Part shown: positions 4,796 through 53,984 of the stretch, one piece after another
Layout: every line of letters begins with the position of its first letter
Numbering within the stretch: the stretch's first letter is position 1
Assembly (NCBI GenBank): GCA_963969395.1
Contig: OZ017801.1
Coordinates: 436,501 to 500,500, forward strand
DNA from: Pseudoscleropodium purum
Lineage: Eukaryota > Streptophyta > Bryopsida > Hypnales > Brachytheciaceae
Direction: 5' to 3'
DNA length: 64,000 nt
Made by a program: the position numbers and the translations under genes
Notes under the pieces: generated by a model
What the model was told of the DNA's origin: nothing
What the model saw: the letters and a program-made list of their open reading frames with translations, nothing else
Database searches by the model: none

Positions 4796-5047
4796 TGTCG
4801 CAGCACAGGGCAGGTCAATTCCCCATTATACTCACAAAAATCACTCTAGAGTATAACTAAGTGACTCTAAAGATCGAACCCACGAGATCCTGTGAAGTAT
4901 CTAGCTCTATTAAGTAGTTAAGCTCAGTCTGTATGCCAATCTTACTTTCCGGTCCTAGATCTAGAACCAGAAATACCAACACACCGAATAACTACAGACC
5001 GGATTACTCCTTCTTCCGGTCCTACTAATTATCCGGTCCATACAAAT

Positions 5048-8000
5048 TGTCGCAGCACAGGGCAGGTCAATTCCCCATTATACTCACAAAAATCGCTCTA
5101 GAGTATAACTAAGTGACTCTAAAGATCGAACCCACGAGATCCTGTGAAGTATCTAGCTCTATTAAGCAGTTAAGCTCAGTCAGTATGCCAATCTTACTTT
5201 CCGGTCCTAGATCTAGAACCAGAAATACTACCACACCGGGTAACTACAGACCGGATTACTCCTTCTTCCGGTCCTACTAACTATCCGGTCCGTACAAACA
5301 CCCAAATCCCAGGATCTCACAACTTCCGATCCTAGAAATCCGTCCTGACCAATCCGGTCGGGATGGTCATCCTCTACTCGTAATCCTATCCGGTTTGGTT
5401 TTGCCTCTGTTTCACCATCAGAGGGGTCGTCGCTTAATTTTGAGAGTGGTAGGCCCACCACTCCTTCCGTGACTTATAGTGGCTGAAGACCCACTGTCCT
5501 ACTTCCTAAACTCCTAAGCTAATCCGGATCCGGTTTGGTCCTTCACAACAACCCAGATAGCAATCCGGGTCGTAGGTCACACAAAGACCCCACACTCGAC
5601 CCTCTCGTACTACAACGACCTTGATGCTACTTCCGATCCGTGCGAAGACAGGTGGTTACAAGTGCACCCGTCCGTTCCAACATCAACTAAAGTTCTTCCG
5701 TTACCCATACAGGTGGTGAGACCTCACAGGAGATCGGACACTCGACCGGATTTCCCACCCGGGAGTTCTAGCGCAGCTAAGGAATCCCTCCCTACCCGCC
5801 TAGCCTAACAACGGCTTTCTCACCCGGAATCTCAAACTCTAGACGTGCTGAGGAACTAAGTTCACTCCCAACTCTTCGGTACCTACTCACATGCACCTTG
5901 GATCGGAAAATAAACACCAAGGGGAGAAATCACTTACAAACTCACTCGTACTATCCTAACTCCACATCATACAATCCTGTCGCGCTGGAGAGAGACACAC
6001 AATGAAGAGAATAGAAAGGTACAAGAAATTTGTAAAATGAACAACTCCCAATTCCCATCTCAGGAACCGATTTATATACAAAGGGTCAAAACCCTAAAAG
6101 CACAAAAAGGAGCGAAAAACCCGTGGGGGTCCGCCGCCACCTAAATCTAACTTCCGGTCTAACCTAATACTGTTGAGCCGGATCCGGATCCGGATCCGCT
6201 CCTACTCCTAACTGAAATTAAAATCCTATCTACCCTACAACTCTAGATCCTATCGTCGGGCTTCCGACCTCCGGGACTAGCTCCTCGAAGACTTCGCTCA
6301 AATTCCGGACCCGTTCCCCCTCCGCAGGATTCGGTCCGGGTGGAGACTCCAGGTCGATGGTGATATCCGGTCTCGTGCCCGGAGTCCCAGTCCGTGCAGA
6401 CTTCTTGGACTCAGGAGTCCAATCCTTCCTGTCCTTCGCCATAGTTGCATCCGGAAAGAGGTCCGGTAGAGAGATGTCCGAAAGGTGAATACCTTTGTCG
6501 CACGTCGCTCCCGTCAGCTTCCAGCTGCTCTCCTCGATCCGGTCCGCTGCCTTCCGCCCCTCCACCATTGCCGTCTCCACCTGCTCGGCGAAGTCCGCGA
6601 GAATCCGGACCATCCGGGAACCGGATAGTTTCTTCTCTTCGTGGATCTTCTCATCGAAGAGCTTCGCCTTGGCCGCTGCCGTTCCGGTCTCTCCCAGGAC
6701 CGTCTTGATCTGCTCGGCCACCTTCCGAGTCTCCTCCGCCATCTCCCGAGCGGCCGTCACGTCTTCCTGATAGGCGAAAAGTGTTGCCTTCAGTTTATCT
6801 ACCTCCTCCTGCAACCGGCGGATCTCGGCTTCCTGCTTCCGGGTCTCTTCCGGATTCGTGATGCATTGCGCCACTTGTTCCGCCAAGTTGCTGTCCGGTG
6901 CAGCACCCACCAACTTGCCGATTGCCGCAAGCGTCCTGTGCTTCACCTCCCAATCCGCCCTGATGTTGCAGAGGACGTTGATCAGACCGTTGAACGGATC
7001 TTGCATATCCGGATCTCCCCCGGAATTGGTCTTCTCGGCTTCCGGTTTCTCCTCCGGGGCCGGTTTGTCTTGACCGGGAGGCGTCCCGCGCTTGTGTGGA
7101 GGCGTCAGCTTCTGTCGCTTGATCGGCGGCATCGGCTCCTCCTCTTCCTCGCTGGACTCCCGGTCTGACTCGGAATCGGATTCCGCTTCGTCATCCGTCT
7201 CCGACTCCCCATACTTTAGGAGCACTTCCTGCGTCTTCCACGCCTTCTCCTCTATGTTGGTGAGGACTTGGTTCTCCCGATAGAGGTGGAAGAGGTAAGG
7301 GCACACTGGAGTGGCCCTTTTCTTCCCAACCCTACTAACAAGCTGGGCCACGAGATCGGAAATGATCCGTGCCCAGTCCACTTTCCGGGTACCACTGAGG
7401 GCACCGAAAATGGTGTTGCCGAGGGTGATCGTCACCCTGGTCGGCTTTTCCGGGTGAAGAACCGGAACCAGGAATTGCAGGAGCCGACGGTGTCGGTCGT
7501 CCAAGCAATCCTCGACCGCGTATCCGTCCTTCGGGTTGACGGCTCCCTTGAACTTCCCTCGGACAAACTCATCCTTCCGGCTCGCCATTCCCAAACCTCC
7601 TGCCCGGAAACCGTAAACCGCTCTCCACATCCCCTCGTTCCAGCTGACGGGAGCTCCCCTCACGGTGTTGTCAAACTGGTTGGACAACTTTCCGAGGAGC
7701 TCCTTGACCATTCTCTCCTCCCTAAAACCCCAAGGTTTCTCGGCAAACCCTACGCAACCCATGGATTTGAGATCCTCCATGAGTTGAGATTTTTCCGGCT
7801 CTGTGGAGGGAATAACCGGAATGACTTTCCGGAGCTTCACCTCGCCTCCAGAGGGACTCGCTTGTCTCGACCTACGTAGCTGAGGCATTCCCACTCACAT
7901 CTACCTCACTCTCTCCTAGCCGCACGTCCCGTTCCTCACTTCCTCTCTCCGATCTCAACCGGAAGCAGAACAGACAAAACACAAACGCTCAGACGCACAA

Positions 8001-8332
8001 ACGACAAAAACTCAACCGCGCACGCTCAAGGTCGAGTTTCTAAAAGGGGGTGCAACAGTGAAAGCTCCTCCTTTTATAGTCCCTGGACCCTTTCCGGTTT
8101 ACCATCATAATCCGGTTCATCATCATCATCCATTCCTAGACCTAATCCGTGTTACATTCTGTTTCCGTCGTTAGTTACTCCTGACCGGATTAGATCCAAG
8201 AAGCCCACTACTTCACGTTCCGTGCTAATTCTGAGTTTTCCTTTCCCACCTAATCGGATCCGGTTAGCTAATGACTAGTTTCCGTTCCTATTTGGGTGTA
8301 TACTAAGAAAATCAAAATTCTAAGCTGCGACA
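5048..8332 (-). mobile_element. Family A element E2 (full length, 3285 bp, inside E1)
   Basis: A complete copy with 9-bp terminal inverted repeats TGTCGCAGC/GCTGCGACA, beginning TGT and ending ACA. The flanks are CAAAT on the left and CAAAC on the right (4 of 5 identical). On the minus strand the order is: 5' end (8332), TATA-type promoter, ORF (7888-6230), second TATA-like motif (TATATAAATCGG near 6075), about 1 kb of conserved non-coding sequence, 3' end (5048). Confidence 0.92.
6230..7888 (-). CDS. Family A element protein, intact 552-codon ORF (E2)
   Basis: The chosen start is the ATG at 7886-7888 (MPQLRRSRQ); the frame is open two codons further to a GTG, but ATG fits a eukaryote. Visible parts, in residues: a basic N-terminus; a compact region at about 30-215 ending in PVCPYLFHLYRENQV; an acidic tract at about 230-253; a basic NLS-like stretch PIKRQKLTPPHKR near 257-269; a heptad-rich coiled coil at about 345-400; and a Pro/Asp-rich tail with ITIDLESPP. 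There are no RT, integrase, RNase H, DDE transposase, zinc-knuckle or protease motifs. The 130-210 segment loosely recalls the 'putative plant transposon protein' / Athila ORF1-type domain, which is inference only. The function is unknown; nuclear localisation and self-association are plausible. Confidence 0.8.
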   Translation of the reverse strand: MPQLRRSRQASPSGGEVKLRKVIPVIPSTEPEKSQLMEDLKSMGCVGFAEKPWGFREERMVKELLGKLSNQFDNTVRGAPVSWNEGMWRAVYGFRAGGLGMASRKDEFVRGKFKGAVNPKDGYAVEDCLDDRHRRLLQFLVPVLHPEKPTRVTITLGNTIFGALSGTRKVDWARIISDLVAQLVSRVGKKRATPVCPYLFHLYRENQVLTNIEEKAWKTQEVLLKYGESETDDEAESDSESDRESSEEEEEPMPPIKRQKLTPPHKRGTPPGQDKPAPEEKPEAEKTNSGGDPDMQDPFNGLINVLCNIRADWEVKHRTLAAIGKLVGAAPDSNLAEQVAQCITNPEETRKQEAEIRRLQEEVDKLKATLFAYQEDVTAAREMAEETRKVAEQIKTVLGETGTAAAKAKLFDEKIHEEKKLSGSRMVRILADFAEQVETAMVEGRKAADRIEESSWKLTGATCDKGIHLSDISLPDLFPDATMAKDRKDWTPESKKSARTGTPGTRPDITIDLESPPGPNPAEGERVRNLSEVFEELVPEVGSPTIGSRVVG

Positions 8333-8925
8333 CAAACCCTAGGCAACCCATGGATTTGAGATCCTCCATGAGTTGAGACTTTTCCGGCTCTGTGGAGGGA
8401 ATAACCGGAATGACTTTCCGGAGTTTCACCTCGCCTCCAGAGGGACTCGCTGGTCTTGACCTACGTAGCGGCGGCATTCCCACTGCAATCTATCTCACTC
8501 TCTCCTAGCCGCATGTCCCGTTCCTCACGTTCTCTCTCTGATCTCAACCGGAATCGAAACAAGCAGAACACAAACACAAAAACTCAACCGCGCGCTCTCA
8601 AGGTCGAGTTTCTAAAAAGGGGGTGCAACAGTGAAAGCTCCTCCTTATATAGTCTCTGGACCCTTTCCGGTTTGATCATCATGAATCCGGTTCACCATCA
8701 TAATCCGGTTCATCATCATAATCCGGTCCTAGACCTAATCCGTGTTGCATTCCGTTTCCGTCGTTAGTTACTCCTGACTGGATTAGATCCAAGAGGCCCA
8801 CTACTTCACGTTCCGTGCTAATTTTGAGTTTTCCTTCTCCACCTTATCGGATCCGGTTCCCTAATGGCTAGTTTCCGTTCCTATTTTGGTGTATACTAAG
8901 AAAATCAAAATTTTAAGCTGCGACA

Positions 8926-9857
8926 CCCTCAATATGTGAACATTTTCATTACAAAGGCGTTTTCACTACACGGGCATCTTGACTACAAGGGCCTTTTCAC
9001 CACAAGAGCAAGTTTATTACAAGGGTGATTTCACTTCTAGAGATTTTTTATTACAAGGGCATTTTCAATACAAGTACAATTCACTACAAGGGGATTTTCA
9101 CCACGAGAGCAAGTTTAGTATGAGGGCCATTTCACTCCTTGAAAGTTTAATAACAAGCGCATTTTTGGTACAATGGCATATTTGGGATACATGGGCATTT
9201 TGGGAACTAAGGCATTTTCATTCCAAGGGCATTTTCACCACAAGAGCAATCTTACTACAAGGGTGATTTCACTCTTAGAAAATTTCATAATAAGGGCATT
9301 AGCACTACAAGGGCATCTTCAATCCAAGGGTATTTTCAATACAAAGGCGTTTTCACCACGTGAGCAATTTTACCACGAGGGCAATTTCACTTCCAGAAGT
9401 TTTTATTTCCAAGACATAATCACTATAAAGGCATTTTCAATACAAGGGCATTTTAGGCATGAAAGCAATTTGACCATGAGGGCAATTTTACTGCCAGAAA
9501 TTTCTATTACAAAAGCAATTCTACTACAAGGGATTTTTAAATACAAGGGCGGCTTAACTACAACAACATTTTGAATCTAAAGGCATTTTCAGTACAAAGG
9601 CAGTTTTAGTACAAGGGCATATTGACTCCTAGAACGTCTTTCCTACAATGGCATCTTTACTTTGTGGTCACTTTTAGCACAAGGGTATTTTAATTTTGAG
9701 GCCATTTGGACTCCAAGGGCATTTTAAGTCTATGGACATTTGGAGTCCAAGGTCATTTTCAATCCTAGGGCATTTTTACTATAGGAGCATTTTCACTACA
9801 AGGGCATTTTCACAAACAAGGCATTTTTACTGCAAGGGCGGTTTGACTTCCCGGCAT
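8926..9857 (+). repeat. 17-bp minisatellite array, plus orientation, right segment
   Basis: The array continues after the E1/E2 insertion with units such as TACAAGGGCATTTTCAC, in the same orientation as 4261-4795. It ends near 9857 at the edge of a diverged element fragment. The frames inside it are repeat artefacts. Confidence 0.88.
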
Positions 9858-10635
9858 TTAGAATGGAGCTCCTCGCACGATGTTATTGAACTCATTGGAC
9901 ACCTTGACCAAGAGTTCCTTCACCATCCATTCCTCCCTAAAGCCTCAGGATTTTTGCATAAACCCTTGACAACCCATAACGATGAGATTGTCCATGAGCT
10001 GGGACTTTTCCGGTTCCGTCAAGGGAATAACCGGAATGACTTTTTGGAGCTTCACCTCGTCTGTGGAACCGGTTGGTTTTGGCCTTGTCCTGCGTAGCTA
10101 CAGCATGGGCACAGATCTTTCCACTCTGAACCTTTCCGATCCTACCTCACTCTCTTCTAGTTCCTCTCTTTCTCTCTCTGATCTCAACTGGAAAATCCAA
10201 ACCTGCAACCCACACGTTTAAATACTATCGTGCCTTACACACTCATATGGAAGTTCACACACACAACACTATGTTGTGAAAGCGGGCAAAAAGCGCTCCA
10301 AGTCAACTCTAGAAATCGAGGAGAGAAAGGAGTGAAACTGGGAAGACCAACCCTTATATAGTCCCAAGATCCCAGATTTGTCATCATGACTTTTTCCGGT
10401 CCGGTCCTTTGCAATCCAATCATACCCTAATCCGATCTAGAAGAGGATCCGGATAGGATTCCGTTCCGGTCTAAATTCACTTTCTAACTGGCTAAGATCC
10501 AATTGGCCTACTACCTCATTTTTCTAGTTTATTTTTGGTTTTCTTCTGCTTCCTAATTGGATCCGGATTCCTAACCACTGGTTTCCATTCCAATTCCTAC
10601 ATAAATAAATAAAATCAGAAATTCACGTTGCGACA
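9858..10635 (-). mobile_element. Diverged family A relative (A'), 5' fragment
   Basis: On the minus strand it starts TGTCGCAACGTGAATTTC at 10635, close to the family A 5' end. It contains a TATA-like TATATAAGG (around 10355) and then an ORF start related to family A (VKLQKVIPVIP, FREEWMVKELL), with an in-frame stop. It stops abruptly at about 9858 against the minisatellite, so the 3' two thirds are missing and no target duplication can be seen. It is clearly more diverged than E1-E7 and so represents another subfamily. Confidence 0.75.
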
Positions 10636-12930: not shown

Positions 12931-12934
12931 AGTT

Positions 12935-13799: not shown

Positions 13800-16700
13800 T
13801 GTCGCAACACAGGGCAGGTCAATTCCCCATTATACTCACAAAAATCGCTCTAGAGTATAACTAAGTGACTCTAAAGATCGAACCCACGAGATCCTGTGAA
13901 GTATCTAGCTCTATTAAGCAGTTAAGCTCAGTCAGTATGCCAATCTTACTTTCCGGTCCTAGATCTAGAACCAGAAATACCAACACACCGGATAACTATA
14001 GAATGGATTTCCCTTCTTCCGGTCCTACTAACTATCCGGTCCATACAAATACCCAAATCCCAGGATCTCACAACTTCCGATCCTAGAAATCCGTCCTGAC
14101 CAATCCGGTCCGGATGGTCATCATGTATTCGTAATCCTATCCGGTTTAGTTTTGCCTCTGTTTCACCATCAGAGGGGTCGTCGCTTACATTTGAGAGTGG
14201 TAGGCCCACCACTCCTTCCATCACTTATAGTGGCTGAAGACCCACTGTCCTACTCCCAAAACTCCTAAGCTAATCCGGATCCGGTTTGGTCCTTCACAAC
14301 AACCCAGATAGCAATCCGGGTCGTAGGTCACACAAAGACCCCACACTCGACCCTCTCGTACTACAACGACCTTGATGCTACTTCCGATCCGTGCGAAGAC
14401 AGGTGGTTACAAGTGCACCCGTCCGTTCCAACATCAACTAAAGTTCTTCCGTTACCCATACGGGTGGTGAGACCTCACAGGAGATCGGACACTCAACCGG
14501 ATTTCCCACCCGGGAGTTCTAGCGCAGCTAAGGAATCCCTCCCTACCCGCCTAGCCTAACAACGGCTTTCTCACCCGGAATCTCAAACTCTAGACGTGCT
14601 GAGGAACTAAGTTCACTCCCAACTCTTCGGTACCTACTCACATGCACCTTGGATCGGAAAATAAACACCAAGGGGAGAAATCACTTGCAAACCAACTCGT
14701 ACTATCCTAACTCCACATCATACAATCCTGTCGCGCTGGAGAGAGACACACAATGAAGAGAATAGAAAAGTACAAGAAGTTTGCAAAATGAACAACTCCC
14801 AATTCCCATCGCGGGAACCGATTTCTATACAAAGGGTAAAAACCCTAAAAGCACAAAAAGGAGCGGAAAACCCGTCGGGGTCCGCCGCCACCCTAATCTA
14901 ACTTCCGGTCTAACCTAATACTGTTGAGTCGGATCCGCTCCTACTCCTAACTGAAATTAAAATCCTATCTACCCTACAACTCTGGATCCTATTGTCGGGC
15001 TTCCGATCTCCGGGACTAGTTCCTCGAAGACTTCACTCAAGTTCCGGATCCGTTCCCCCTTCGCAGGATTCGATCCGGGTGGAGACTCCAGGTCGATGGT
15101 GATATCCGGTCTCGTGCCCGAAGTCCCAGTCCGTGCAGACTTCTTGGACTCAGGAGTCCAATCCTTCCTATCCTTCGCAATAGTCACGTCCGGAAAGAGA
15201 TCCGGTAGCGAGATGTCCGAAAGATGAATCCCTTTGTCGCACGTTGCTCCAGTCAGCTTCCGGCTGCTCTCCTCGATCCGGTCCGCAGCCTTCCGCCCCT
15301 CCACCATTGCCGTCTCCACCTACTCAGCGAAGTCCGCGAGAATCCGGACCATCCGGGAATCGGATAGTTTCTTCTCTTCGTGGATCTTCTCGTCGAAGAG
15401 CTTCGCTTTGGCGGTGGCCGTTCCGGTCTCTCCCAGGACCGCCTTGATCTACTCAGCTATCTTCCGAGTCTCCTCCGCCATCTCCCGGGCGGCCGTCACG
15501 TCTTCCTGATAGGCAAAAAGAGTTGCCTTCAGTTTATCCAACTCCTCCTGCAACCGACGGATCTCTGCTTCCTGTTTCTAGGTCTCTTCCGGATTGGTGA
15601 TGCACTCCGCCACCTGTTCTGCCAACTTGCTGTCCGTTGGCGCACCTACCAACTTTCCGATCACCGCAAGCGTCCTGTGCTTGACCTCCCAATCCGCCCT
15701 GATGTTGCAAAGGACGTTGATAAGACCGTTGAACGGATCTTGCATTTCCGGGTCTCCCCTGGAAACGGTCTTCTCGGCTTCCGGTTTCTCTTCCGGGGCC
15801 GGTCTGTCTTGACCGGGAGGCGTCCCGCGCTTGTGTGGAGGCGTCAACTTCTGTCGCTTGATGGGCGGCATCGGCTCCTCCTCTTCCTCGCTCGACTCCC
15901 GTTCTGACCCGGAATTGGATTCGGCCTCGTCATCCGTTTCCGACTCCCCATACTTCAGGAGGACTTCCTGAGTCTTCCACACCTTCTCCTCCGTGTCGGT
16001 GAGGACTTGGTGTTCTCGATAGAGGTGGAAGAGGTAAGGGCACACTGGAGTGGCCCTTTTCTTCCCAACCCTACTAACAAGCTGGGCCACGAGATCGGAA
16101 ATGATCCGTGCCCAATCCACTTTCCGGGTACCACTGAGGGCACCGAAAATGGTGTTGCCGAGGGTGATCGTCACCCTGGTCAGCTTTTCCGGGTGAAGAA
16201 CCGGAACCAGAAATTGCAGGAGCCGACGGTGTCGGTCATCCACGCAATCCTCGACCGCGTATCCGTCCTTCGAGTTGATAGCCCCCTAGAACTTCCCTCG
16301 GACAAACTCATCCTTCCGGTTCGCCATCCCTAAACTTCCTGCCCGGAAACCGTAAACTGCTCTCCACATTCCCTCGTTCCAGCGGACGGGAGTTCCTCTC
16401 ACGGTGTTGTCAAACTGGTTGGACAGCTTTCCGAGGAGCTCCTTGACCATTCTCTCCTCCCTAAAACCCCAGGGTTTCTCGGCAAACCCTAGGCAACCCA
16501 TGGATTTGAGATCCTCCATGAGTTGAGACTTTTCCGGCTCTATGGAGGGAATAACCGGAATGACTTTCCGGAGTTTCACCTCGCCTCCAGAGGGACTCAC
16601 TGGTCTTGACCTACGTAGCGGCGGCATTCCCACTGCAATCTATCGCACTCTCTCCTAGCCGCATGTCCCGTTCCTCACGTTCTCTCTCTGATCTCAACCG

Positions 16701-17064
16701 GAATCAAAACAAACAGAACACAAACGCACAAACGCCAAAAACTCAACCGCGCATGCTCAAGGTCGAGTTTCTAAAAGGGGGTGCAACAGTGAAAGCTCCT
16801 CCTTTTATAGTCCCTGGACCCTTTCCGGTTTGTCATCATGAATCCGGTTTACCATCATAATCCGGTCCTAGACCTAATCCGTGTTGCATTCCGTTTCCGT
16901 CGTTAGTTACTCCTGACTGGATTAGATCCAAGACGCCCACTACTTCACGTTCCGTGCTAATTTTGAGTTTTCCTTCTCCACCTTATCGGATCCGGTTCCC
17001 TAATGGCTAGTTTCCGTTCCTATTTTGGTGTATACTAAGAAAATCAAAATTTTAAGCTGCGACA
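13800..17064 (-). mobile_element. Family A element E3 (3265 bp, decayed ORF)
   Basis: A full-length copy with ends TGTCGCAACACAGGG (one change in the 9-bp repeat) and AAGCTGCGACA. AGGTC is duplicated perfectly at 13795-13799 and 17065-17069. It has the MPPLRRSRP subgroup N-terminus and the variant TATAGAAATCGG instead of TATATAAATCGG in the second promoter-like motif. It interrupts an exon-like block. Confidence 0.92.
14969..16627 (-). pseudogene. Family A element ORF in E3, broken by in-frame stops
   Basis: The frame is colinear with the intact ORF of E2 from ATG (16627) to the terminal stop (14969) with no frameshift, but it holds at least four nonsense codons. These lie after RGKF, after NPEET, in AE*IKAV, and in AE*VETAM. 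The last two are CAG to TAG and the second is CGG to TAG, so transitions dominate. All other regions (acidic tract, KRQK stretch, coiled coil) remain. It is a dead copy. Confidence 0.85.
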
Positions 17065-17671: not shown

Positions 17672-19354
17672 TGTCGCAGCACAGGGCAGGTCAATTCCCC
17701 ATTATACTCACAAAAATCGCTCTAGAGTATAACTAAGTGACTCTAAAGATCGAACCCACGAGATCCTGTGAAGTATCTAGCTCTATTAAGCAGTTAAGCT
17801 CAGTCAGTATGCCAATCTTACTTTCCGGTCCTAGATCTAGAACCAGAAATACCAACACATCGGATAACTACAGACCGGGTTACTCCTTCTTCCGGTCCTA
17901 CTAACTATCCGGTCCGTACAAATACCCAAATCCCAGGATCTCACAATTTCTGATCCTGGAAATCCGTCCTGACCAATCCGGTCCGGATGGTCATCCTGTA
18001 CCCGTAATCCTATCCGGTTTGGTTTTGCCTCTGTTTCACCATCAGAGGGGTCGTCGCTTACATTTGAGAGTGGTAGGCCCACCACTCCTTCCGTGACTTA
18101 TAGTGGCTGAAGACCCACTGTCCTACTTCCTAAACTCCTAAGCTAATCCGGATCCGGTTTGGTCCTTCACAACAACCTAGATAGCAATCCGGGTCGTAGG
18201 TCACACAAAGACCCCACACTCGACCCTCTCGTACTACAACGACCTTGATGCTACTTCCGATCCGTGCGAAGACAGGTGGTTACAAGTGCACCCGTCCGTT
18301 CCAACATCAACTAAAGTTCTTCCGTTACCCATACGGGTGGTGAGACCTCACAGGAGATCGGACACTCGACCGGATTTCCCACCCGGGAGTTCTAGCGCAG
18401 CTAAGGAATCCCTCCCTACCCGCCTAGCCTAACAACGGCTTTCTCACCCGGAATCTCAAACTCTAGACGTGCTGAGGAACTAAGTTCACTCCCAACTCTT
18501 CGGTACCTACTCACATGCACCTTGAATCGGAAAATAAACACCAAGGGGAGAATTCACTTGCCAACCAACTCGTACTATCCTAACTCCACATCATACAATC
18601 CTGTCGCGCTGGAGAGAGATACACAACGAAGAGAATGGAAAGGTACAAGAAGTTTGCAAAATGAAAAACTCCCAATTCCCATCGCAGGAACCGATTTCTA
18701 TACAAAGGGTCAAAACCCTAAAAGCACAAAAAGGAGCGGAAAACCCGTCGGGGTTCGCCGCCACCCTAATCTAACTTCCGGTCTAACCTAATACTGTTGA
18801 GCCGGATCCGGATCCGAATCCGCTCCTACTCCTAACTGAAATTAAAATCCTATCTACCCTACAACTCTAGATCCTATCGTCGGGCTTCCGGTCTCCGGGA
18901 CTAGCTCCTCGAAGACTTCACTCAAATTCCGGACCCGTTCCCCCTCCGCAGGATTCGGTCCGGGTGGAGACTCCAGGTCGATGGTAATATCCGGTCTCGT
19001 GCCCGGAGTCCCAGTCCGTGCAGACTTCTTGGACTCAGGAGTCCAATCCTTCCTGTCCTTCGCCATAGTTGCATCCGGAAAGAGGTCCGGTAGAGAGATG
19101 TCCGAAAGGTGAATACCTTTGTCGCACGTCGCTCCCGTCAGCTTCCAGCTGCTCTCCTCGATCCGGTCCGCTGCCTTCCGCCCCTCCACCATTGCCGTCT
19201 CCACCTGCTCGGCGAAGTCCGCGAGAATCCGGACCATCCGGGAACCGGATAGTTTCTTCTCTTCGTGGATCTTCTCGTCGAAGAGCTTCGCCTTGGCCGC
19301 TGCCGTTCCGGTCTCTCCCAGGACCGCCTTGATCTGCTCGGCCACCTTCCGAGT

Positions 19355-22300
19355 TGTCGCAGCACAGGGCAGGTCAATTCCCCATTATACTCACAAAAAT
19401 CGCTCTAGAGTATAACTAAGTGACTCTAAAGATCGAACCCACGAGATCCTGTGAAGTATCTAGCTCTATTAAGCAGTTAAGCTCAGTCAGTATGCCAATC
19501 TTACTTTCCGGTCCTAGATCTAGAACCAGAAATACTACCACACCGGGTAACTACAGACCGGATTACTCCTTCTTCCGGTTCTACTAACTATCCGGTCCGT
19601 ACAAATACCCAAATCCCAGGATCTCACAACTTCCGATCCTGGAAATCCGTCCTGACCAATCCGGTCGGGATGGTCATCCTCTACTCGTAATCCTATCCGG
19701 TTTGGTTTTGCCTCTGTTTCACCATCAGAGGGGTCGCCGCTTAATTTTGAGAGTGGTAGGCCCACCACTCCTTCCGTGACTTATAGTGGCTGAAGACCCA
19801 CTGTCCTACCTTCTAGACTCCTAAGCTAATCCGGATCCGGTTTGGTCCTTCACAACAACCCAGATAGCAATCCGGGTCGTAGGTCACACAAAGACCCCAC
19901 ACTCGACCCTCTCGTACTACAACGACCTTGATGCTACTTCCGATCCGTGCGAAGACAGGTGGTTACAAGTGCACCCGTCCGTTCCAACATCAACTAAAGT
20001 TCTTCCGTTACCCATACAGGTGGTGAGACCTCACAGGAGATCGGACACTCGACCGGATTTCCCACCCGGGAGTTCTAGCGCAGCTAAGGAATCCCTCCCT
20101 ACCCGCCTAGCCTAACAACGGCTTTCTCACCCGGAATCTCAAACTCTAGACGTGCTGAGGAACTAAGTTCACTCCCAACTCTTCGGTACCTACTCACATG
20201 CACCTTGGATCGGAAAATAAACACCAAGGGGAGAAATCACTTGCAAACCGACTCGTACTATCCTAACTCCACATCATACAATCCTGTCGCGCTGGAGAGA
20301 GATACACAACGAAGAGAATAGAAAGGTACAAGAAGTTTGCAAAATGAAAAACTCCCAATTCCCATCGCAGGAACCGATTTATATACAAAGGGTCAAAACC
20401 CTAAAAGCACAAAAAAGAGCGGAAAACCCGTGGGGGTCCGCCGCCACCTAAATCTAACTTCCGGTCTAACCTAATACTGTTGAGCCGGATCCGGATCCGG
20501 ATCCGCTCCTACTCCTAACTGAAATTAAAATCCTATCTACCCTACAACTCTAGATCCTATCGTCGGGCTTCCGACCTCCGGGACTAGCTCCTCGAAGACT
20601 TCGCTCAAATTCCGGACCCGTTCCCCCTCCGCAGGATTCGGTCCGGGTGGAGACTCCAGGTCGATGGTAATATCCGGTCTCGAGCCCGGAGTCCCAGTCC
20701 GTGCAGACTTCTTGGACTCAGGAGTCCAATCCTTCCTGTCCTTTGCCATAGTTGCATCCGGAAAGAGGTCCGGTAGAGAGATGTCCGAAAGGTGAATACC
20801 TTTGTCGCACGTCGCTCCCGTCAGCTTCCAGCTGCTCTCCTCGATCCGGTCCGCTGCCTTCCGCCCCTCCACCATTGCCGTCTCCACCTGCTCGGCGAAG
20901 TCCGCGAGAATCCGGACCATCCGGGAACCGGATAGTTTCTTCTCTTCGTGGATCTTCTCGTCGAAGAGCTTCGCCTTGGCCGCTGCCGTTCCGGTCTCTC
21001 CCAGGACCGTCTTGATCTGCTCGGCCACCTTCCGAGTCTCCTCCGCCATCTCCCGAGCGGCCGTCACGTCTTCCTGATAGGCAAAAAGTGTTGCCTTCAG
21101 TTTATCTACCTCCTCCTGCAACCGGCGGATCTCGGCTTCCTGCTTCCGGGTCTCTTCCGGATTCGTGATGCATTGCGCCACTTGTTCCGCCAAGTTGCTG
21201 TCCGGTGCAGCACCCACCAACTTGCCGATTGCCGCAAGCGTCCTGTGCTTCACCTCCCAATCCGCCCTGATGTTGCAGAGGACGTTGATCAGACCGTTGA
21301 ACGGATCTTGCATATCCGGATCTCCCCCGGAATTGGTCTTCTCGGCTTCCGGTTTCTCCTCCGGGGCCGGTTTGTCTTGACCGGGAGGCGTCCCGCGCTT
21401 GTGTGGAGGCGTCAGCTTCTGTCGCTTGATCGGCGGCATCGGCTCCTCCTCTTCCTCGCTGGACTCCCGGTCTGACTCGGAATCGGATTCCGCTTCGTCA
21501 TCCGTCTCCGACTCCCCATACTTTAGGAGCACTTCCTGCGTCTTCCACGCCTTCTCCTCTATGTTGGTGAGGACTTGGTTCTCCCGATAGAGGTGGAAGA
21601 GGTAAGGGCACACTGGAGTGGCCCTTTTCTTCCCAACCCTACTAACAAGCTGGGCCACGAGATCGGAAATGATCCGTGCCCAATCCACTTTCCGGGTACC
21701 ACTGAGGGCACCGAAAATGGTGTTGCCGAGGGTGATCGTCACCCTGGTCGGCTTTTCCGGGTGAAGAACCGGAACCAGGAATTGCAGGAGCCGACGGTGT
21801 CGGTCATCCACGCAATCCTCGACCGCGTATCCGTCCTTCGGGTTGACGGCTCCCTTGAACTTCCCTCGGACAAACTCATCCTTCCGGCTCGCCATTCCCA
21901 AACCTCCTGCCCGGAAACCGTAAACCGCTCTCCACATCCCCTCGTTCCAGCTGACGGGAGCTCCCCTCACGGTGTTGTCAAACTGGTTGGACAACTTTCC
22001 GAGGAGCTCCTTGACCATTCTCTCCTCCCTAAAACCCCAAGGTTTCTCGGCAAACCCTACGCAACCCATGGATTTGAGATCCTCCATGAGTTCAGCCTTT
22101 TCCGGCTCTGTGGAGGGAATAACCGGAATGACTTTCCGGAGCTTCACCTCGCCTCCAGAGGGACTCGCTTGCCTCGACCTACGTAGCTGAGGCATTCCCA
22201 CTCACATCTACCTCACTCTCTCCTAGCCGCACGTCCCGTTCCTCACTTCCTCTCTCCGATCTCAACCGGAAGTAGAACAGACAAAACACAAACGCTCAGA

Positions 22301-22658
22301 CGCACAAGCGACAAAAAGTCAACCGCGCACGCTCAAGGTCGAGTTTCTAAAAGGGGGTGCAATAGTGAAAGCTCCTCCTTTTATAGTCCCTGGACCCTTT
22401 CCGGTTTGTCATCATGAATCCGGTTTACCATCATAATCCGGTTCATCATCATCATCCGTTCCTAGACCTAATCCGGGTTACATTCCGTTTCCGTCGTTAG
22501 TTACTCCTGACCGGATTAGATCCAAGAAGCCCACTACTTCACGTTCCGTGCTAATTCTGAGTTTTCCTTTCCCACCTAATCGGATCCGGTTAGCTAATGA
22601 CTAGTTTCCGTTCCTATTTGGGTGTATACTAAGAAAATCAAAATTCTAAGCTGCGACA
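19355..22658 (-). mobile_element. Family A element E5 (full length, 3304 bp, inside E4)
   Basis: Perfect 9-bp ends TGTCGCAGC/GCTGCGACA and a perfect 5-bp duplication CGAGT (19350-19354 and 22659-22663), which lies in the coding sequence of E4. The ORF is intact. TATATAAATCGG is present in the second promoter-like motif. This is the clearest proof of target-site duplication, because the empty site is known from the sister copies. Confidence 0.95.
20537..22195 (-). CDS. Family A element protein, intact 552-codon ORF (E5)
   Basis: The ATG is at 22193-22195 and the stop at 20537-20539. It differs from the E2 protein at only a few residues (EKAEL for EKSQL near 35, CVDD for CLDD near 131, GSRP for GTRP near 507), so the copies are young or homogenised. 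It has the same order: conserved globular region, acidic tract, KRQK-type basic stretch, coiled coil and Pro/Asp-rich tail. A TATA box lies upstream on the minus strand (TATAAAAGGAGG around 22378). Function unknown. Confidence 0.8.
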   Translation of the reverse strand: MPQLRRSRQASPSGGEVKLRKVIPVIPSTEPEKAELMEDLKSMGCVGFAEKPWGFREERMVKELLGKLSNQFDNTVRGAPVSWNEGMWRAVYGFRAGGLGMASRKDEFVRGKFKGAVNPKDGYAVEDCVDDRHRRLLQFLVPVLHPEKPTRVTITLGNTIFGALSGTRKVDWARIISDLVAQLVSRVGKKRATPVCPYLFHLYRENQVLTNIEEKAWKTQEVLLKYGESETDDEAESDSESDRESSEEEEEPMPPIKRQKLTPPHKRGTPPGQDKPAPEEKPEAEKTNSGGDPDMQDPFNGLINVLCNIRADWEVKHRTLAAIGKLVGAAPDSNLAEQVAQCITNPEETRKQEAEIRRLQEEVDKLKATLFAYQEDVTAAREMAEETRKVAEQIKTVLGETGTAAAKAKLFDEKIHEEKKLSGSRMVRILADFAEQVETAMVEGRKAADRIEESSWKLTGATCDKGIHLSDISLPDLFPDATMAKDRKDWTPESKKSARTGTPGSRPDITIDLESPPGPNPAEGERVRNLSEVFEELVPEVGSPTIGSRVVG

Positions 22659-25447: not shown

Positions 25448-25720
25448 TGTCGCAGCTTAGAATTTTGATTTTCTTAGTATACACCCAAATAGGAACGGAA
25501 ACTAGTCATTAGCTAACCGGATCCGATTAGGTGGGAAAGGAAAACTCAGAATTAGCACGGAACGTGAAGTAGTGGGCTTCTTGGATCTAATCCGGTTATG
25601 AATAACTAACGACGGAAACGGAATGCAACACGGATTAGGTCTAGGACTGGATGATGATGATGAACCGGATTATGATGGTAAACCGGATTCATGATGACAA
25701 ACCGGAAAGGGTCCAGGGAC

Positions 25721-25729
25721 TATATAAGG
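25721..25729 (+). promoter_or_regulatory. TATA box of the E6 element
   Basis: TATATAAGG lies 190 bases before the ORF start and is followed by GAGCTTTCACTG. E7 has the same word at 50756-50764; the other copies carry it or TATAAAAGG at the equivalent place. It is a standard plant TATA motif at a sensible distance, so it probably drives the element ORF. Confidence 0.6.
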
Positions 25730-25910
25730 AGGAGCTTTCACTGTTGCACCCCCTTTTAGAAACTCGACCTTGAGAGCGCGCGGTTGAGTTTTTGTCGTTT
25801 GTGCGTCTGTGCGTTTGTGTTCTGTTCGTTTTGATTCCGGTTGAGATCGGAGAGAGGAAGTGAGGAACGGGACGTGCGGCTAGGAGAGAGTGAGGTAGAT
25901 GTGAGTGGGA

Positions 25911-32413: not shown

Positions 32414-32416
32414 TAA

Positions 32417-44509: not shown

Positions 44510-45380
44510 AGTTTGGGAATGATGGGGAAGTGCCGCGACACCTTCATTGGAAAACAACGCCGCTCCTTGTCCTAGTATCTGTGACCGCCACACTTGGAAC
44601 ACTGTAGGTCTTGCTCATAGGGCCCACAAAAAAGCACACAGCCTCGTTCACATGCATGGATGGTATTGTATGTCAAACCCAATTTCCTCGTCAAGACTTG
44701 CGCGGCGTAGTAATTTTGAGGTAAGTTATTGTTCCTTGGTAGGAAATGAGAATGCAAAATGCTGAACAATTTGTTGGCACGGTGTAGGGTTGACAAATCT
44801 CTACGTCCGCCCGAAAAAAGCGTCCGTAACCCAAACGTCCGGACGCACGGACGCCGGCGGACGCAGCGTCCCTTCGGCCCGTCGGAAAGCGGATGGGCGG
44901 GGCGGGGCGGACGGCCCGAGGCGGACGCCCAGATCGTGCGGACCACATCAGTCCGCGTGTCGATCGGACGGCCGTAACCGGGCGGACGGGGGACAGGCGG
45001 ATGGGGTGGACAAGCGGACGCGAATGTCAGCGGACGCTGCGAATACAGCATTCGCGTCCGAACGTCCTGTCAACCCTGTCTCCAAATGAGGTAATCTAGA
45101 TGCCTTCCATGACGTACAAGGTGAGCTTGAACGTTCTTCAGGAGAAGTCTTTTACGACCTTTGCACTTCATGCAAGGACAATGCAGCTTCTTCACATTGT
45201 ACTCTCTAGTTCATTGTAACTCCCTCAACCTGAGGCGCTCATCTCTAAGTCTCTGTCTGCCACTGTCGGACAATAGAAGCCTAGAAGGAATCATCTTCAC
45301 TAGTTTGGCAAATTTGTTACCATGTCATACAAAGAGTGGAAAGCGGGAGGGTAATGGATTGGAACTTGTAAAGGGACGGC
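44510..45380 (-). pseudogene. CACTA (En/Spm) TNP2-like transposase remnant, carrying element M2
   Basis: On minus, 45215-45079 reads REYNVKKLHCPCMKCKGRKR and then QAHLVRHGRHLDYLIW, the CPCxxC zinc-binding pattern of the transposase-associated domain at the start of plant TNP2 proteins. After M2, 44784-44515 reads LFSILHSHFLPRNNNLPQNY, LGLTYNTIHACERGC, CSKCGGHRY, then KVSRHFPIIPKLQ. This is the typical TNP2 succession (YY, LGL.Y..IHAC, C..CG..R, P.K...FP..P.LQ). TGA and TAG stops are present, and the roughly 100-200 residues normally between the two blocks are missing. It is dead. The similarity ends after PKLQ near 44515. Confidence 0.75.
44785..45078 (+). mobile_element. hAT-type miniature element copy M2
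   Basis: A GC-rich 294-bp block from TAGGGTTGACAAATC to GTCCTGTCAACCCTG. The terminal inverted repeats match M1 and M4, with T for C at the first base. The flanking 8-mers GCACGGTG and TCTCCAAA do not match. The host TNP2-like gene lacks sequence here too, so a deletion at one side probably removed the duplication. Confidence 0.65.
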
Positions 45381-48230: not shown

Positions 48231-48294
48231 GGATTAGGGCTATTTGATAAGTGGATTCAGTTGTCTGGTTGTTATGTAGTAGGGGACTTCTACC

Positions 48295-48445: not shown

Positions 48446-48886
48446 CCCGCGGTCACTCCTTTAATCTTTAAACAATTAAATGTTAAATGAAGTGCAATGG
48501 TTCGCAATTTGTTATTAAAACAAAGTCTCTTATAAGTTGAAAGATTATAAAGTTTGACCATGAGTCCATGATAGTCTTGAAACTATGAAAAAATTTCAAT
48601 TCATTTTCAGAAGGCAAACTAAAAAAGTTTGTGACTTCAAATATATATATATATATACTATTTAAAAAATCAAGATCAATACAAATACAAATATAATCAA
48701 TATGGGCAAAATGTATTCAATTTAATATAGAATACCATACATTGTGAACTCAAAAATTTACATATACCATATAATGTGCACATTTGGCTAATTGCACATA
48801 TAATTTTTTTCATTCCAACTCTATATTTCTAAACTAATTTTTAATGCCTATATAACCTATTCAACTACTACTTCTGTACTACCAAT
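48446..48886. other. AT-rich spacer with an (AT)8 microsatellite
   Basis: No gene is seen. An (AT)8 run lies at 48641-48656. This is the 3' flank of the minus-strand kinase-like pseudogene. Confidence 0.5.
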
Positions 48887-49861
48887 CTAATATAAATGGC
48901 GGAAATGTTCATCTGGCATCGGCCAACGATATGTATTAGAAAATCGCATAATCACATGGGCCAAACTAGTATTTTCATCGTCAATCTTCGAAGAAATGCG
49001 CTTCAAGTAAGCATAAAACACTTTTGCAAAGTCATGAAAGGCAAATTGTGTCGCACTAGGTGTTTTAAATAGCAAGTTGAAATACGAATTTGACATGCTG
49101 TTTTCATTCATCTTCCGAGCAATTTTTCGAATGGCATACTCTTCCGACTTACGTGAATATATCGGAATGACTTCCACATCTGCACCTGCTTTATGCAAAT
49201 ATGCAATACGTGGATCCATCCACCATCTCCTCTGCAAAGTCTGTTTCATTTCATCTGTTGATGTGAATGTGTACAAAGACTTCATTGGTTGAGAAGCTAA
49301 GGTGGTCATGCCCCAATCACAAACTCCAATGTACACACGTGACTCATCTTCTAAAAAATGCAACAAGATGTTGTTCGGAGAAAGATTATTGTGCAAATAT
49401 ACAACAAGATGCACTGCATACATTATATGCATAAAGGTCCATGTCAGCTCCGTGCGCTTCTTCCGATATCGCCCTAAACGATGAGCTTTTACAACCTCCT
49501 CTTCGGTTGGATTCGTATACATCAAACGGATTTGAATGTTGTTTGGATAGTTCTTATCCATATTCAACATTTGTCGAAGAGTTCCACCATTCTACCAATA
49601 CGCATAACCTTCATACGTCGTTCCGTGCACCGCAGCAAACTGTATCACATCCGCGTGTAGAATTCAAACAGCCATTGATTCATTTTGATGTTCTAACTTT
49701 GCAAGATCGGGTCGAGTTTGGTGGTGAATGGATTTCTTTACCGCAAACTCCCAATCAGGAAGTATTCCTGGACATCCTTCAATACGAACCTTTCGAATCG
49801 TTGCATATCCACCTCTCATCATTCTATCATCAACAGCAATCATGCGTGCTGTATCTGGAAG

Positions 49862-50160
49862 CAGGGTTGACGAATTTGAACGTCCTCCCCAAAATAGCGT
49901 CCGTTTTCCGGACGTCCGGACGCAGCGTCCCGACCGCCGTCGAAAAGCAGACGGGCGGGGCGGACGGACGGGGCGGACGGCCCGAGGCGGACGCCCAGAT
50001 CGTGCGGACCAGATCAGTCCGTGCGTCGATCGGACGGCCATAATCAAGCGGACGGACGGATGGGCGGACGGGGGACTGGCGGACGCTGCGTCCGCCAGGA
50101 CGTGAATGTCAGCGGACGCTGCGGACACAGCGTCCGCGTCTGGACGTCCTAACAACCCTG
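49862..50160 (+). mobile_element. hAT-type miniature element copy M4, perfect 8-bp duplication
   Basis: 299 bp from CAGGGTTGACGAATTTG to GGACGTCCTAACAACCCTG. TCTGGAAG is duplicated exactly at 49854-49861 and 50161-50168. The interior is a CpG-rich run of CGGACG words. The TIRs starting CAGGG and the 8-bp duplication define it as hAT-like. Its insertion split an otherwise continuous kinase frame. Confidence 0.9.
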
Positions 50161-50755
50161 TCTGGAAGTGCTATGAGGTGCTGTTTGTTCCTTTCCGCTT
50201 TAGCAACTCCATCATTGCTTTTCCACCAAGCAATTGAACCAACTCGATTGTGCTTTTTGGCGAATGGAACACATCGCCCCCTAAACAAGTCCGCTTTCAA
50301 AATCACTTCTTCAAACTGGGCGTCATTGGGTCGATATTCCTTGCCATATTTAACCAAAATGACTTTGGAATTCCACAAAGCGTCATGAACCTTCTTCTCC
50401 AAACATTTGGTGAAGTGCGTTTTGTGCATTTCGTCATGCCACTTCGGAACATTCAATGCATCCAACAACATCTATGTCATGTTGTCGCAGCTTAGAATTT
50501 TGATTTTCTTAGTATACACCCAAATAGGAACGGAAACTAGTCATTAGCTAACCGGATCCGATTAGGTGGGGAAGGAAAACTCAGAATTAGCACGGAACGT
50601 GAAGTAGTGGGCTTCTTGGATCTAATCCGGTCAGGAGTAACTAACGACGGAAACGGAATGTAACACGGATTAGGTCTAGGACCGGATGATGATGATGAAC
50701 CGGATTATGATGGTAACCCGGATTCATGATGACAAACCGGAAAGGGTCTAGGGAC

Positions 50756-50764
50756 TATATAAGG
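50756..50764 (+). promoter_or_regulatory. TATA box of E7, upstream of the element ORF
   Basis: TATATAAGG lies 190 bp before the ATG and 273 bp from the element 5' end. The same word in E6 at the same distance supports function. Confidence 0.6.
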
Positions 50765-50945
50765 AGGAGCTTTCACTGTTGCACCCCCTTTTAGAAACTC
50801 GACCTTGAGCGTGCGCGGTTGAGTTTTTGTCGTTTGTGCGTCTGTGCGTTTGCGTTCTGTTCATTTTGATTCCGGTTGAGATCGGAGAGAGGAAGTGAGG
50901 AACGGGACGTGCGGCTAGGAGAGAGTGAGGTAGATGTGAGTGGGA

Positions 50946-52604
50946 ATGCCTCAGCTACGTAGGTCGAGACAAGCGAGTCCCTCTGGAGGCGAGGTGAAGC
51001 TCCGAAAAGTCATTCCGGTTATTCCCTCCACAGAGCCGGAAAAGGCTGAACTCATGGAGGATCTCAAATCCATGGGTTGCATAGGGTTTGCCGAGAAACC
51101 TTGGGGTTTTAGGGAGGAGAGAATGGTCAAGGAGCTCCTCGGAAAGTTGTCCAACCAGTTTGACAACACCGTGAGGGGAGCTCCCGTCAGCTGGAACGAG
51201 GGGATGTGGAGAGCGGTTTACGGTTTCCGGGCAGGAGGTTTGGGAATGGCGAGCCGGAAGGATGAGTTTGTCCGAGGGAAGTTCAAGGGAGCCGTCAACC
51301 CGAAGGACGGATACGCGGTCGAGGATTGCTTGGATGACCGACACCGTCGGCTCCTGCAATTCCTGGTTCCGGTTCTTCACCCGGAAAAGCCGACCAGGGT
51401 GACGATCACCCTCGGCAACACCATTTTCGGTGCCCTCAGGGGTACCCGGAAAGTGGATTGGGCACGGATCATTTCCGATCTCGTGGCCCAGCTTGTTAGT
51501 AGGGTTGGGAAGAAAAGGGCCACTCTAGTGTGCCCTTATCTCTTCCACCTCTATCGGGAGAACCAAGTCCTCACCAACATAGAGGAGAAGGCGTGGAAGA
51601 CGCAGGAAGTGCTCCTGAAGTACGGGGAGTCGGAGATGGATGACGAAGCGGAATCCGATTCCGAGTCAGACCGGGAGTCCAACGAGGAAGAGGAGGAGCC
51701 GATGCCGCCGATCAAGCGACAGAAGCTGACGCCTCCACACAAGCGCGGGACGCCTCCCGGTCAAGACAAACCGGCCCCGGAGGAGAAACCGGAAGCCGAG
51801 AAGGCCAATTCCGGGGGAGATCCAGATATGCAAGATCCGTTCAACGGTCTGATCAACGTCCTCTGCAACATCAGGGCGGATTGGGAGGTCAAGCACAGGA
51901 CGCTTGCGGCAATCGGCAAGTTGGTGGGTGCTGCACCGGACAGCAACTTGGCGGAACAAGTGGCGCAATGCATCACGAATCCGGAAGAGACCCGGAAGCA
52001 GGAAGCCGAGATCCGCCGGTTGCAGGAGGAGGTAGATAAACTGAAGGCAACACTTTTTGCCTATCAGGAAGACGTGACGGCCGCTCGGGAGATGGCGGAG
52101 GAGACTCGGAAGGTGGCCGAGCAGATCAAGGCGGTCCTGGGAGAGACCGGAACGGCAGCGGCCAAGGCGAAGCTCTTCGACGAGAAGATCCACGAAGAGA
52201 AGAAACTATCCGGTTCCCGGATGGTCCGGATTCTCGCGGACTTCGCCGAGCAGGTGGAGACGGCAATGGTGGAGGGGCGGAAGGCAGCGGACCGGATCGA
52301 GGAGAGCAGCCGGAAGCTGACGGGAGCGACGTGCGACAAAGGTATTCACCTTTCGGACATCTCACTACCGGACCTCTTTCCGGATGCAACTATGGCGAAG
52401 GACAGGAAGGATTGGACTCCTGAGTCCAAGAAGTCTGCACGGACTGGGACTCCGGGCACGAGACCGGATATCACCATCAACCTGGAGTCCCCACCCGGAC
52501 CGAATCCTGCGGAGGGGGAACGGGTCCGGAATTTGAGCGAAGTCTTCGAGGAGCTAGTCCCGGAGGTCGGAAGCCCGACGATAGGATCTAGAGTTGTAGG
52601 GTAG
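50946..52604 (+). CDS. Family A element protein, intact 552-codon ORF (E7)
   Basis: The ATG at 50946 is chosen over the in-frame GTG two codons upstream. The protein matches those of E2 and E5 with scattered replacements: CIGF for CVGF near residue 48, ALRG for ALSG near 166, SEMDDE for SETDDE near 233, ESNEEEEE for ESSEEEEE near 249, ESSRKL for ESSWKL near 456. The acidic tract, KRQK-type basic stretch and coiled coil are kept. Replacements are conservative or lie in low-complexity parts, which hints at constraint, but a dN/dS calculation is needed. No catalytic motif is seen. Confidence 0.8.
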   Translation: MPQLRRSRQASPSGGEVKLRKVIPVIPSTEPEKAELMEDLKSMGCIGFAEKPWGFREERMVKELLGKLSNQFDNTVRGAPVSWNEGMWRAVYGFRAGGLGMASRKDEFVRGKFKGAVNPKDGYAVEDCLDDRHRRLLQFLVPVLHPEKPTRVTITLGNTIFGALRGTRKVDWARIISDLVAQLVSRVGKKRATLVCPYLFHLYRENQVLTNIEEKAWKTQEVLLKYGESEMDDEAESDSESDRESNEEEEEPMPPIKRQKLTPPHKRGTPPGQDKPAPEEKPEAEKANSGGDPDMQDPFNGLINVLCNIRADWEVKHRTLAAIGKLVGAAPDSNLAEQVAQCITNPEETRKQEAEIRRLQEEVDKLKATLFAYQEDVTAAREMAEETRKVAEQIKAVLGETGTAAAKAKLFDEKIHEEKKLSGSRMVRILADFAEQVETAMVEGRKAADRIEESSRKLTGATCDKGIHLSDISLPDLFPDATMAKDRKDWTPESKKSARTGTPGTRPDITINLESPPGPNPAEGERVRNLSEVFEELVPEVGSPTIGSRVVG

Positions 52605-52743
52605 ATAGGATTTTAATTTCAGTTAGGAGTAGGAGCGGATCCGGCTCAATAGTATTAGGTTAGACCGGAAGTTAGATTTAGGTGGCGGCGGACCCCCACG
52701 GGTTTTCCGCTCCTTTTTGTGCTTTTAGGGTTTTGACCCTTTG

Positions 52744-52755
52744 TATATAAATCGG
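52744..52755 (+). promoter_or_regulatory. Second TATA-like motif, 3' of the element ORF
   Basis: TATATAAATCGG lies about 140 bp after the ORF stop. E2 and E5 share it; E3, E4 and E6 have TATAGAAATCGG. If the element is an LTR, this would be the real LTR promoter and the remaining 1 kb would be R plus U5. It could also be chance. Confidence 0.4.
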
Positions 52756-53397
52756 TTCCTGCGATGGGAATTGGGAGTTGTTCATTTTGCAAACTTCTTA
52801 TACCTTTCTATTCTCTTCGTTGTGTATCTCTCTCCAACGCGACAGGATTGTATGATGTGGAGTTAGGATAGTACGAGTTGGTTGGCAAGTGAATTCTCCC
52901 CTTGGTGTTTATTTTCCGATCCAAGGTGCATGTGAGTAGGTACCGAAGAGTTGGGAGTGAACTTAGTTCCTCAGCACGTCTAGAGTTTGAGATTCCGGGT
53001 GAGAAAGCCGTTGTTAGGCTAGGCGGGTAGGGAGGGATTCCTTAGCTGCGCTAAAACTCCCGGGTGGGAAATCCGGTCGAGTGTCCGATCTCCTGTGAGG
53101 TCTCACCACCTGTATGGGTAACGGAAGAACTTTAGTTGATGTTGGAACGGACGGGTGCACTTGTAACCACCTGTCTTCGCACGGATCGGAAGTAGCATCA
53201 AGGTCGTTGTAGTACGAGAGGGTCGAGTGTGGGGTCTTTGTGTGACCTACGACCCGGATTGCTATCTGGGTTGTTGTGAAGGACCAAACCGGATCCGGAT
53301 TAGCTTAGGAGTCTAGAAGGTAGGACAATGGGTCTTCAGCCACTATAAGTCACGGAAGGAGTGGTGGGCCTACCACTCTCAAAATTAAGCGGCGACC

Positions 53398-53418
53398 CCT
53401 CTGATGGTGAAACAGAGG
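53398..53418 (+). other. Conserved small hairpin CCTCTG-loop-CAGAGG in element 3' region
   Basis: The 6-bp stem CCTCTG/CAGAGG encloses the loop ATGGTGAAA. It is present in all full A copies (for example 28375-28395 in E6; 5404-5424 in E2, minus strand). In family B the loop is ATGGTAAAA and the stem changes but mostly still pairs (60154-60174; 60875-60895 on minus). It lies about 250-370 bp from the 3' end in both families. Confidence 0.45.
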
Positions 53419-53984
53419 CAAAACCAAACCGGATAGGATTACGAGTACAGGATGACCATCCCGACCGGATTGGTCAGGACGGATTTCCAGGATCGGAAGT
53501 TGTGAGATCCTGGGATTTGGGTATTTGTACGGACCGGATAGTTAGTAGGACCGGAAGAAGGAGTAATCCGGTCTGTAGTTATCCGGTGTGGTAGTATTTC
53601 TGGTTCTAGATCTAGGACCGGAAAGTAAGATTGGCATACTGACTGAGCTTAACTGCTTAATAGAGCTAGATACTTCACAGGATCTCGTGGGTTCGATCTT
53701 TAGAGTCACTTAGTTATACTCTAGAGCGATTTTTGTGAGTATAATGGGGAATTGACCTGCCCTGTGCTGCGACACATGTCTACCTTGAATTTAGACACGC
53801 ACTCCTCTTGATATCTGATGTACTTATTGTTTAAAGACAATGTTGTTTCCGATTCATAAAATTGAACGATGCGCTCGATCATGAATTTCTTGCATTCTTC
53901 CGAAGGACTTTGGCGAGGTACCTCCAAGTTTGATGGTCCCTCTCCATGTTTTAGCTTCGCAACCTTCTTCTTCCCGTTCGGCAT

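Follow-up and report, generated by a model that had tools for sequence, protein, structure and literature searches.

Solo long terminal repeats of a moss gypsy retrotransposon that enclose a conserved gene

A 64-kb stretch of the genome of the moss Pseudoscleropodium purum (contig OZ017801.1, positions 436,501 to 500,500; here called the window) carries seven copies (E1 to E7) of a 3.3-kb unit with short inverted ends, 5-bp target duplications, and a single open reading frame (ORF). What kind of element is this, and what does its gene do? An earlier note on this DNA, which reported neither a second long terminal repeat (LTR) nor a pol gene next to any copy, proposed either an undescribed class of element or a giant LTR with its own gene. 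Here, we identify the units as solo LTRs of a Ty3/gypsy retrotransposon, in which the LTR encloses a complete gene under selection. On balance, we lean slightly toward the fuller reading in which the product of this gene is a VANC-like, DNA-binding anti-silencing factor.

The 3.3-kb unit and the complete element

The repeated unit of the earlier note is real. The window contains 16 sites matching TGTCGCAGC with at most one mismatch, versus a mean of 6.3 and a maximum of 12 in 100 shuffles; none of the shuffles reached 16 matches, and a chance origin of these ends was rejected. The seven copies share 9-bp inverted ends of the TG...CA type (TGTCGCAGC/GCTGCGACA), with small changes at the start of E4 (TGTCGATGC) and the finish of E3 (GTTGCGACA). 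Unsplit copies measure 3265 to 3304 bp, and E2, E3, E5, and E6 are 93 to 98% identical to E7. The 5-bp duplications were also recovered, exactly in six copies and with one mismatch in E2 (GTTTG versus ATTTG). No gag, pol, or transposase domain was found above cut-off in the element ORF or in 52 of the window's other ORFs (about 71 ORFs of at least 90 amino acids [aa] lie outside the copies by hand count). Identity as a terminal-repeat retrotransposon in miniature (TRIM) was rejected, since the interior of E7 lacks direct terminal repeats. Seven single units with duplications on both sides could be taken for a free-standing element or a DNA transposon.

The rest of the genome argues otherwise. 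A search of the 313-Mb assembly (52 contigs) with E7 gave at least 53 scored matches, 40 of them full-length (39 of 1131 first-look candidates were scored); this match list is partial, because E2, E5, and E6 are missing from its 53 rows. Among the 40 full-length matches are two same-orientation LTR pairs separated by a 5.9-kb gap. Pair 1 (contig C49, 3878948 to 3891470, minus strand) is flanked on both sides by the duplication TGATG; the site TGGCGCCGCTGCCGGGGATC lies 11 bp past its 5' LTR, and the purine tract AGATGAGGAAGGGGTAA immediately precedes its 3' LTR. Its internal region encodes two ORFs. The 537-aa ORF (Gag) matches retroviral nucleocapsid zinc knuckles (1.2e-5). In the 1372-aa ORF, the second third matches the Ty3 reverse transcriptase-RNase H in the PDB (8.8e-68) and the last third matches integrases, i.e., those of prototype foamy virus (PFV; 6.1e-24) and Ty3; the first third had no PDB match, so a protease was not matched. 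The order gag, reverse transcriptase-RNase H, integrase was established on this one complete copy. Pair 2 (contig C49, 7329599 to 7342121) lacks a matching duplication; its internal region and that of pair 1 are 99.0% identical. The two LTRs differ at 16 of 3305 bases in pair 1 and at 31 in pair 2. In both internal regions (L009 and L010), Gag and Pol share one reading phase and are divided by a single TGA at the same position (nucleotides 1756 to 1758 in element orientation).

Searching with the internal region located at least 26 places, each full length over the query (26 of 134 first-look candidates scored). In all 26, the two pairs included, an LTR end is followed by the primer-like site, and all 26 contain the purine tract, with an LTR start next in 25; outside the two pairs, this 3' junction was counted by eye (23 of 24). 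The sole internal region whose purine tract adjoins non-LTR sequence is at C44:8674993, and the other 25 have LTR ends on both sides. At C46:9946661-9961756 and C1:327527-342622, two same-orientation internal regions lie just over 3.3 kb apart; judged by coordinates only, this spacing is as would be expected for tandem elements with one common LTR. Because its ends flank gag-pol internal regions with a primer-like site and a purine tract, the unit is the 3.3-kb LTR of a Ty3/gypsy retrotransposon of about 12.5 kb with a 5.9-kb internal region. Of the two proposals of the earlier note, the giant LTR therefore stands and the undescribed class does not; the primer-binding site after GCTGCGACA and the purine tract before TGTCGCAGC, which the note had suggested looking for, have counterparts around the gag-pol regions. 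Its statement that copies lack a second LTR or pol holds within the window and fails genome-wide. For this family in its own genome, LTR-flanked gag-pol regions refute a new free-standing class and a DNA transposon, leaving that interpretation with almost no probability.

The earlier note had set pairing of nearly all copies around gag-pol as the mark of ordinary LTRs, and this pattern was not seen either. We examined 34 full-length E7 matches, setting aside E3, E7, and the four LTRs that make up pairs 1 and 2; 25 of the 34 stand alone with exact 5-bp duplications. Three are parts of longer elements, since the primer site adjoins downstream (L025 and L034) or the purine tract adjoins upstream (L032); the remaining 6 have no exact duplication, primer site, or purine tract. 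The same test classes all seven copies of the window as solo LTRs, E2 being one base off. The numbers of first-look candidates (1131 for the LTR and 134 for the internal region), which are not copy counts, hint that solo LTRs outnumber complete elements several times over.

Two of the window copies are nested hosts. E1 (4796 to 8925, minus strand; duplication GAGGG in element orientation, as for all minus-strand copies below) is interrupted by E2 (5048 to 8332, minus; 3285 bp; GTTTG/ATTTG). Element positions 1 to 608 of E1 lie at 8333 to 8925 and positions 3041 to 3292 at 4796 to 5047; positions 609 to 3040 are missing exactly where E2 sits, possibly through a deletion at the E2/E1 edge via TTTG microhomology. 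E4 (17672 to 24284, i.e., 17672 to 19354 plus 22659 to 24284, minus; GTACA) is split by E5 (19355 to 22658, minus; 3304 bp; ACTCG), which sits within the E4 ORF. The other solo LTRs are E3 (13800 to 17064, minus; 3265 bp; GACCT), an older copy with four TAG stops in its ORF; E6 (25448 to 28751, plus; 3304 bp; CCATC), with one TAG stop; and E7 (50483 to 53774, plus; 3292 bp; CATGT). An older truncated copy, E8 (9865 to 10635, minus), retains the 5' end TGTCGCAAC at 10635, TATATAAG, the motif, and the ORF start; it is 67% and 76% identical to E7 over two main aligned stretches and is cut near 9865. E8 and the missing E1 segment go beyond the earlier note, as do the motif arrays, the selection acting on the ORF, and the possible VANC-like fold described below.

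A gene inside the LTR

The single ORF that the note had reported has 552 codons from its ATG (554 aa in the listed translation) and occupies half of the LTR. It is open in E2 (6230 to 7888, minus), E5 (20537 to 22195, minus), and E7 (50946 to 52604, plus), and in E4 it is stop-free yet interrupted by E5. Elsewhere, the ORF is intact in 24 of the 34 further copies, including 18 of the 25 that stand alone, and in three of the four LTRs that make up pairs 1 and 2. The E7 product comprises an N-terminal domain (about residues 20 to 228), an acidic linker, and a coiled coil (about 298 to 463). With the gene placed inside the LTR, every complete element has two copies of it, and each solo LTR that recombination leaves behind can retain one.

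The ORF is under selection. Pairwise ratios of nonsynonymous to synonymous change (dN/dS) in the window were 0.13 to 0.32 in 19 of 20 pairs and 0.65 in one short pair. In 39 copies, which are those closest to E7 and may as a sample favor intact ORFs, dN/dS was 0.23 for variants found in at least two copies (91 synonymous, 65 nonsynonymous, 3 stops) and 0.49 for singletons (72 synonymous, 109 nonsynonymous, 6 stops), and only 1 of 22 distinct indels fell within the ORF. The singleton value below 1 could reflect selection on solo copies, or part of the singletons could predate the solo state.

A relative search yielded 131 proteins at an E value of ≤0.01 among 7995 scored candidates, and none of the 120 listed relatives has a precomputed Pfam domain. 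Looking for domain fusions to pol among 657 longer candidates led to 10 proteins of 685 to 700 aa, again without a precomputed Pfam domain. No relative with DNA context lay in viral contigs or prokaryote genome contigs. These stand-alone proteins would suit a host gene that was picked up by the LTR and retained as a passenger. Relatives in clusters as large as 188 and 166 sequences fit a mobile-element gene better, however, and selection is seen in many copies; we regard host capture as very improbable.

Sequence comparisons with known families gave weak, below-cut-off matches, mostly to the coiled coil. No transposase was found above cut-off in the LTR ORF; PF21804 (Transposase_29) was sub-threshold (E value, 0.11 to 0.15) and within the coiled coil. 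PF20167 (Transposase_32) matched 1 of 13 domain sequences weakly (E value, 0.035; 14.4 versus a 45-bit curated cut-off). The VANC-type domains DUF1985 and DUF287 were absent from the three families found at an E value of ≤10 with the 13 domain sequences, and because this sequence test was negative, the protein was not filed as VANC. The N-terminal domain had no PDB match by sequence or profile. A whole-ORF Foldseek search gave no PDB or viral-model match at an E value of ≤0.001, and the VIA rows spanned the coiled coil. No capsid fold appeared in the fold-search listing or as a significant PDB match, although the LTR product may still have one; the element has a separate Gag. The predicted fold may be VANC-like, with a modest match to an anti-silencing protein that binds DNA.

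Promoter-type signals, motif arrays, and a possible role

A first TATA box (TATAWA; 50756 to 50761, plus, in E7) is present in all eight copies of the window in which this region is retained (E8 among them) and lies 190 bp upstream of the E7 ATG. About 140 bp past the ORF comes a second site of TATA-like or poly(A)-like type, TTTGTATATAAAT (52744 to 52749, plus); its sequence is TATATAAA in E2, E5, and E7 and TATAGAAA in E3, E4, and E6. This site may drive the genomic RNA as its promoter, which would place the ORF in the U3 part of the LTR, or, as it also resembles a plant poly(A) signal, it may mark the end of R, which would place the ORF in R.

Short-motif arrays lie on either side of the gene. 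An 18-bp tandem array with ACCGGAT-type cores (50681 to 50741, plus) is immediately upstream of the TATA box, with a unit number that varies among copies, and a CCGGAT hexamer array lies 3' of the ORF (27601 to 27621, plus, in E6; 6178 to 6198 in E2; 20485 to 20505 in E5); E7 and E3 have a version shorter by 12 bp. Across the 39 copies, the first array has 2 to 5 cores (4 in 27 copies) and the second a run of 1 to 3 units (3 in 26 copies). ACCGGA (16 occurrences, 14-fold enriched) and CCGGAT/ATCCGG (16, 17-fold) are the top hexamers in the non-coding DNA of E7 and also rank first in E3; in E8, ATCCGG (4, 20-fold) is joint first. The ORF is also enriched for CCGGA, and conservation of motif bases over other non-coding bases showed no clear effect.

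The copies also bear traces of their past. Those in the window are mosaic (87 informative sites in six rows; pairwise homoplasy index [PHI], 0.313 versus 0.424, with 0 of 2000 permutations as low), as expected for LTRs recombining or switching templates. In E3, with the direction of change assumed from four other copies, C-to-T type changes affect 20 of 363 CG, 14 of 285 CHG, and 22 of 849 CHH sites, versus 14 of 1454 for the reverse transitions. Methylation at CG and CHG sites would leave such a mark, and from this decay pattern the family seems once to have been targeted for silencing. Among changes private to E3, G>A (41) and C>T (21) outnumber A>G (8) and T>C (6), and on the coding strand G>A exceeds C>T.

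We propose that the LTR gene, sitting behind its conserved TATA box between the arrays, would yield a nuclear product that binds ACCGGAT-type motifs in the element's own non-coding DNA. The bound product would then counteract host silencing, as VANC21 does via a 9-base motif in VANDAL21 according to excerpts of PMC5735166 and PMC10398659. A DNA-binding accessory protein is the probable nature of the product, with the ACCGGAT-type motif as its putative target; its action against silencing, argued by analogy, is more tentative, at slightly under an even chance. The same solo LTRs and accessory gene could alternatively encode, for example, a component of the particle, a protein for transport or for interaction with the host, or a simple activator of transcription, with the motif merely an enhancer. 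This alternative has a considerable chance, short of even: plant retrotransposon accessory ORFs are mostly of unknown role in the portions of PMC11963269 and PMC11728184 consulted, an acidic linker with a coiled coil is compatible with many roles, and the VANC-like fold match is modest. Against it stand the arrays of varying unit number and the resemblance in predicted fold to an anti-silencing protein that binds DNA.

If the anti-silencing role is true, sequence-specific anti-silencing of the VANC type would reach beyond the Mu-like DNA transposons in which it is known and include LTR elements, and a role would be at hand for a class of accessory proteins of plant retrotransposons that so far lack an explanation. 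Recombination to a solo LTR also gains new meaning, as the leftover can retain a working gene, possibly with the gene's binding sites. A further step, which we think unlikely, is that solo LTRs are more than dead remnants and form a dispersed reservoir of dozens of intact selected genes supplying an anti-silencing factor in trans to all copies via the motif arrays. At least 24 further intact copies at known genome positions make the proposed role of the product directly testable.

Surroundings and comparison with known systems

E1/E2 are flanked at 2534 to 4790 and 8941 to 9839 by degenerate tandem arrays of a 17-bp unit (TACAAGGGCATTTTCAC type or its complement); the array unit switches strand near 4260, and the E8 end is close to the right-hand array. 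A GC-rich repeat (GGCGGACGG-like) occurs at about four places (3058 to 3441, 44572 to 45089, 49664 to 50105, and 62712 to 63020), several of which contain chance ORFs with, by eye, a common peptide like RPIDARTDLVRTIWASASGR. Elsewhere in the window are a 289-aa ORF (598 to 1467, plus) with an NLI-interacting-factor-like phosphatase domain (PF03031; E value, 2.3e-17), a 474-aa ORF (29095 to 30519, minus) with a weak, below-cut-off protein kinase match (PF00069; E value, 1e-5), and a piece at 48887 to 49591 (minus) that is kinase-like by eye and has no Pfam match.

Genes wholly or partly within an LTR are familiar from animal retroviruses, namely, sag of mouse mammary tumor virus (MMTV) and lentiviral nef in U3, whose proteins are unrelated to the one described here. 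For plants, a search confined to one open-access literature library found no LTR enclosing such a gene among the papers listed. The element shares with Ty3/gypsy elements the order LTR, primer site, gag, reverse transcriptase-RNase H, integrase, purine tract, LTR, as well as 5-bp duplications; what sets it apart is a separate conserved gene, complete with a TATA box of its own, inside the 3.3-kb LTR.

Rice Retrosat2, RIRE3, and RIRE8 likewise have LTRs of about 3 kb and an extra ORF, and Retrosat2 and RIRE8 have 10-bp inverted LTR ends (TGTCACACCC-GGGCGTGACA), whereas their ORF0 is described as lying upstream of gag-pol, outside the LTR (parts of PMC3485330). Retand elements encode antisense TRP28 ORFs, the accessory protein being predicted to bind DNA and thought to be regulatory; these ORFs are antisense and internal, in contrast to the present gene, and the LTRs are shorter in the table rows compared (parts of PMC11963269). 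Athila combines a Gypsy element with accessory proteins (PF20167 and PF03078), the former weakly similar here; its accessory ORFs lie 3' of gag-pol in the internal region rather than inside the LTR (parts of PMC11728184). A possible origin of the LTR gene, by analogy, is a 3' accessory ORF of this kind that was taken up into the LTR.

VANDAL elements with their VANC proteins, as covered in parts of PMC5735166 and PMC10398659, differ in being Mu-like DNA transposons, in carrying DUF1985 and DUF287, which were not detected in the moss ORF, and in their motif (YAGTATTAY versus the ACCGGAT type). They resemble the moss family in a possibly similar predicted fold and in short-motif tandem arrays in non-coding DNA whose units are gained and lost.

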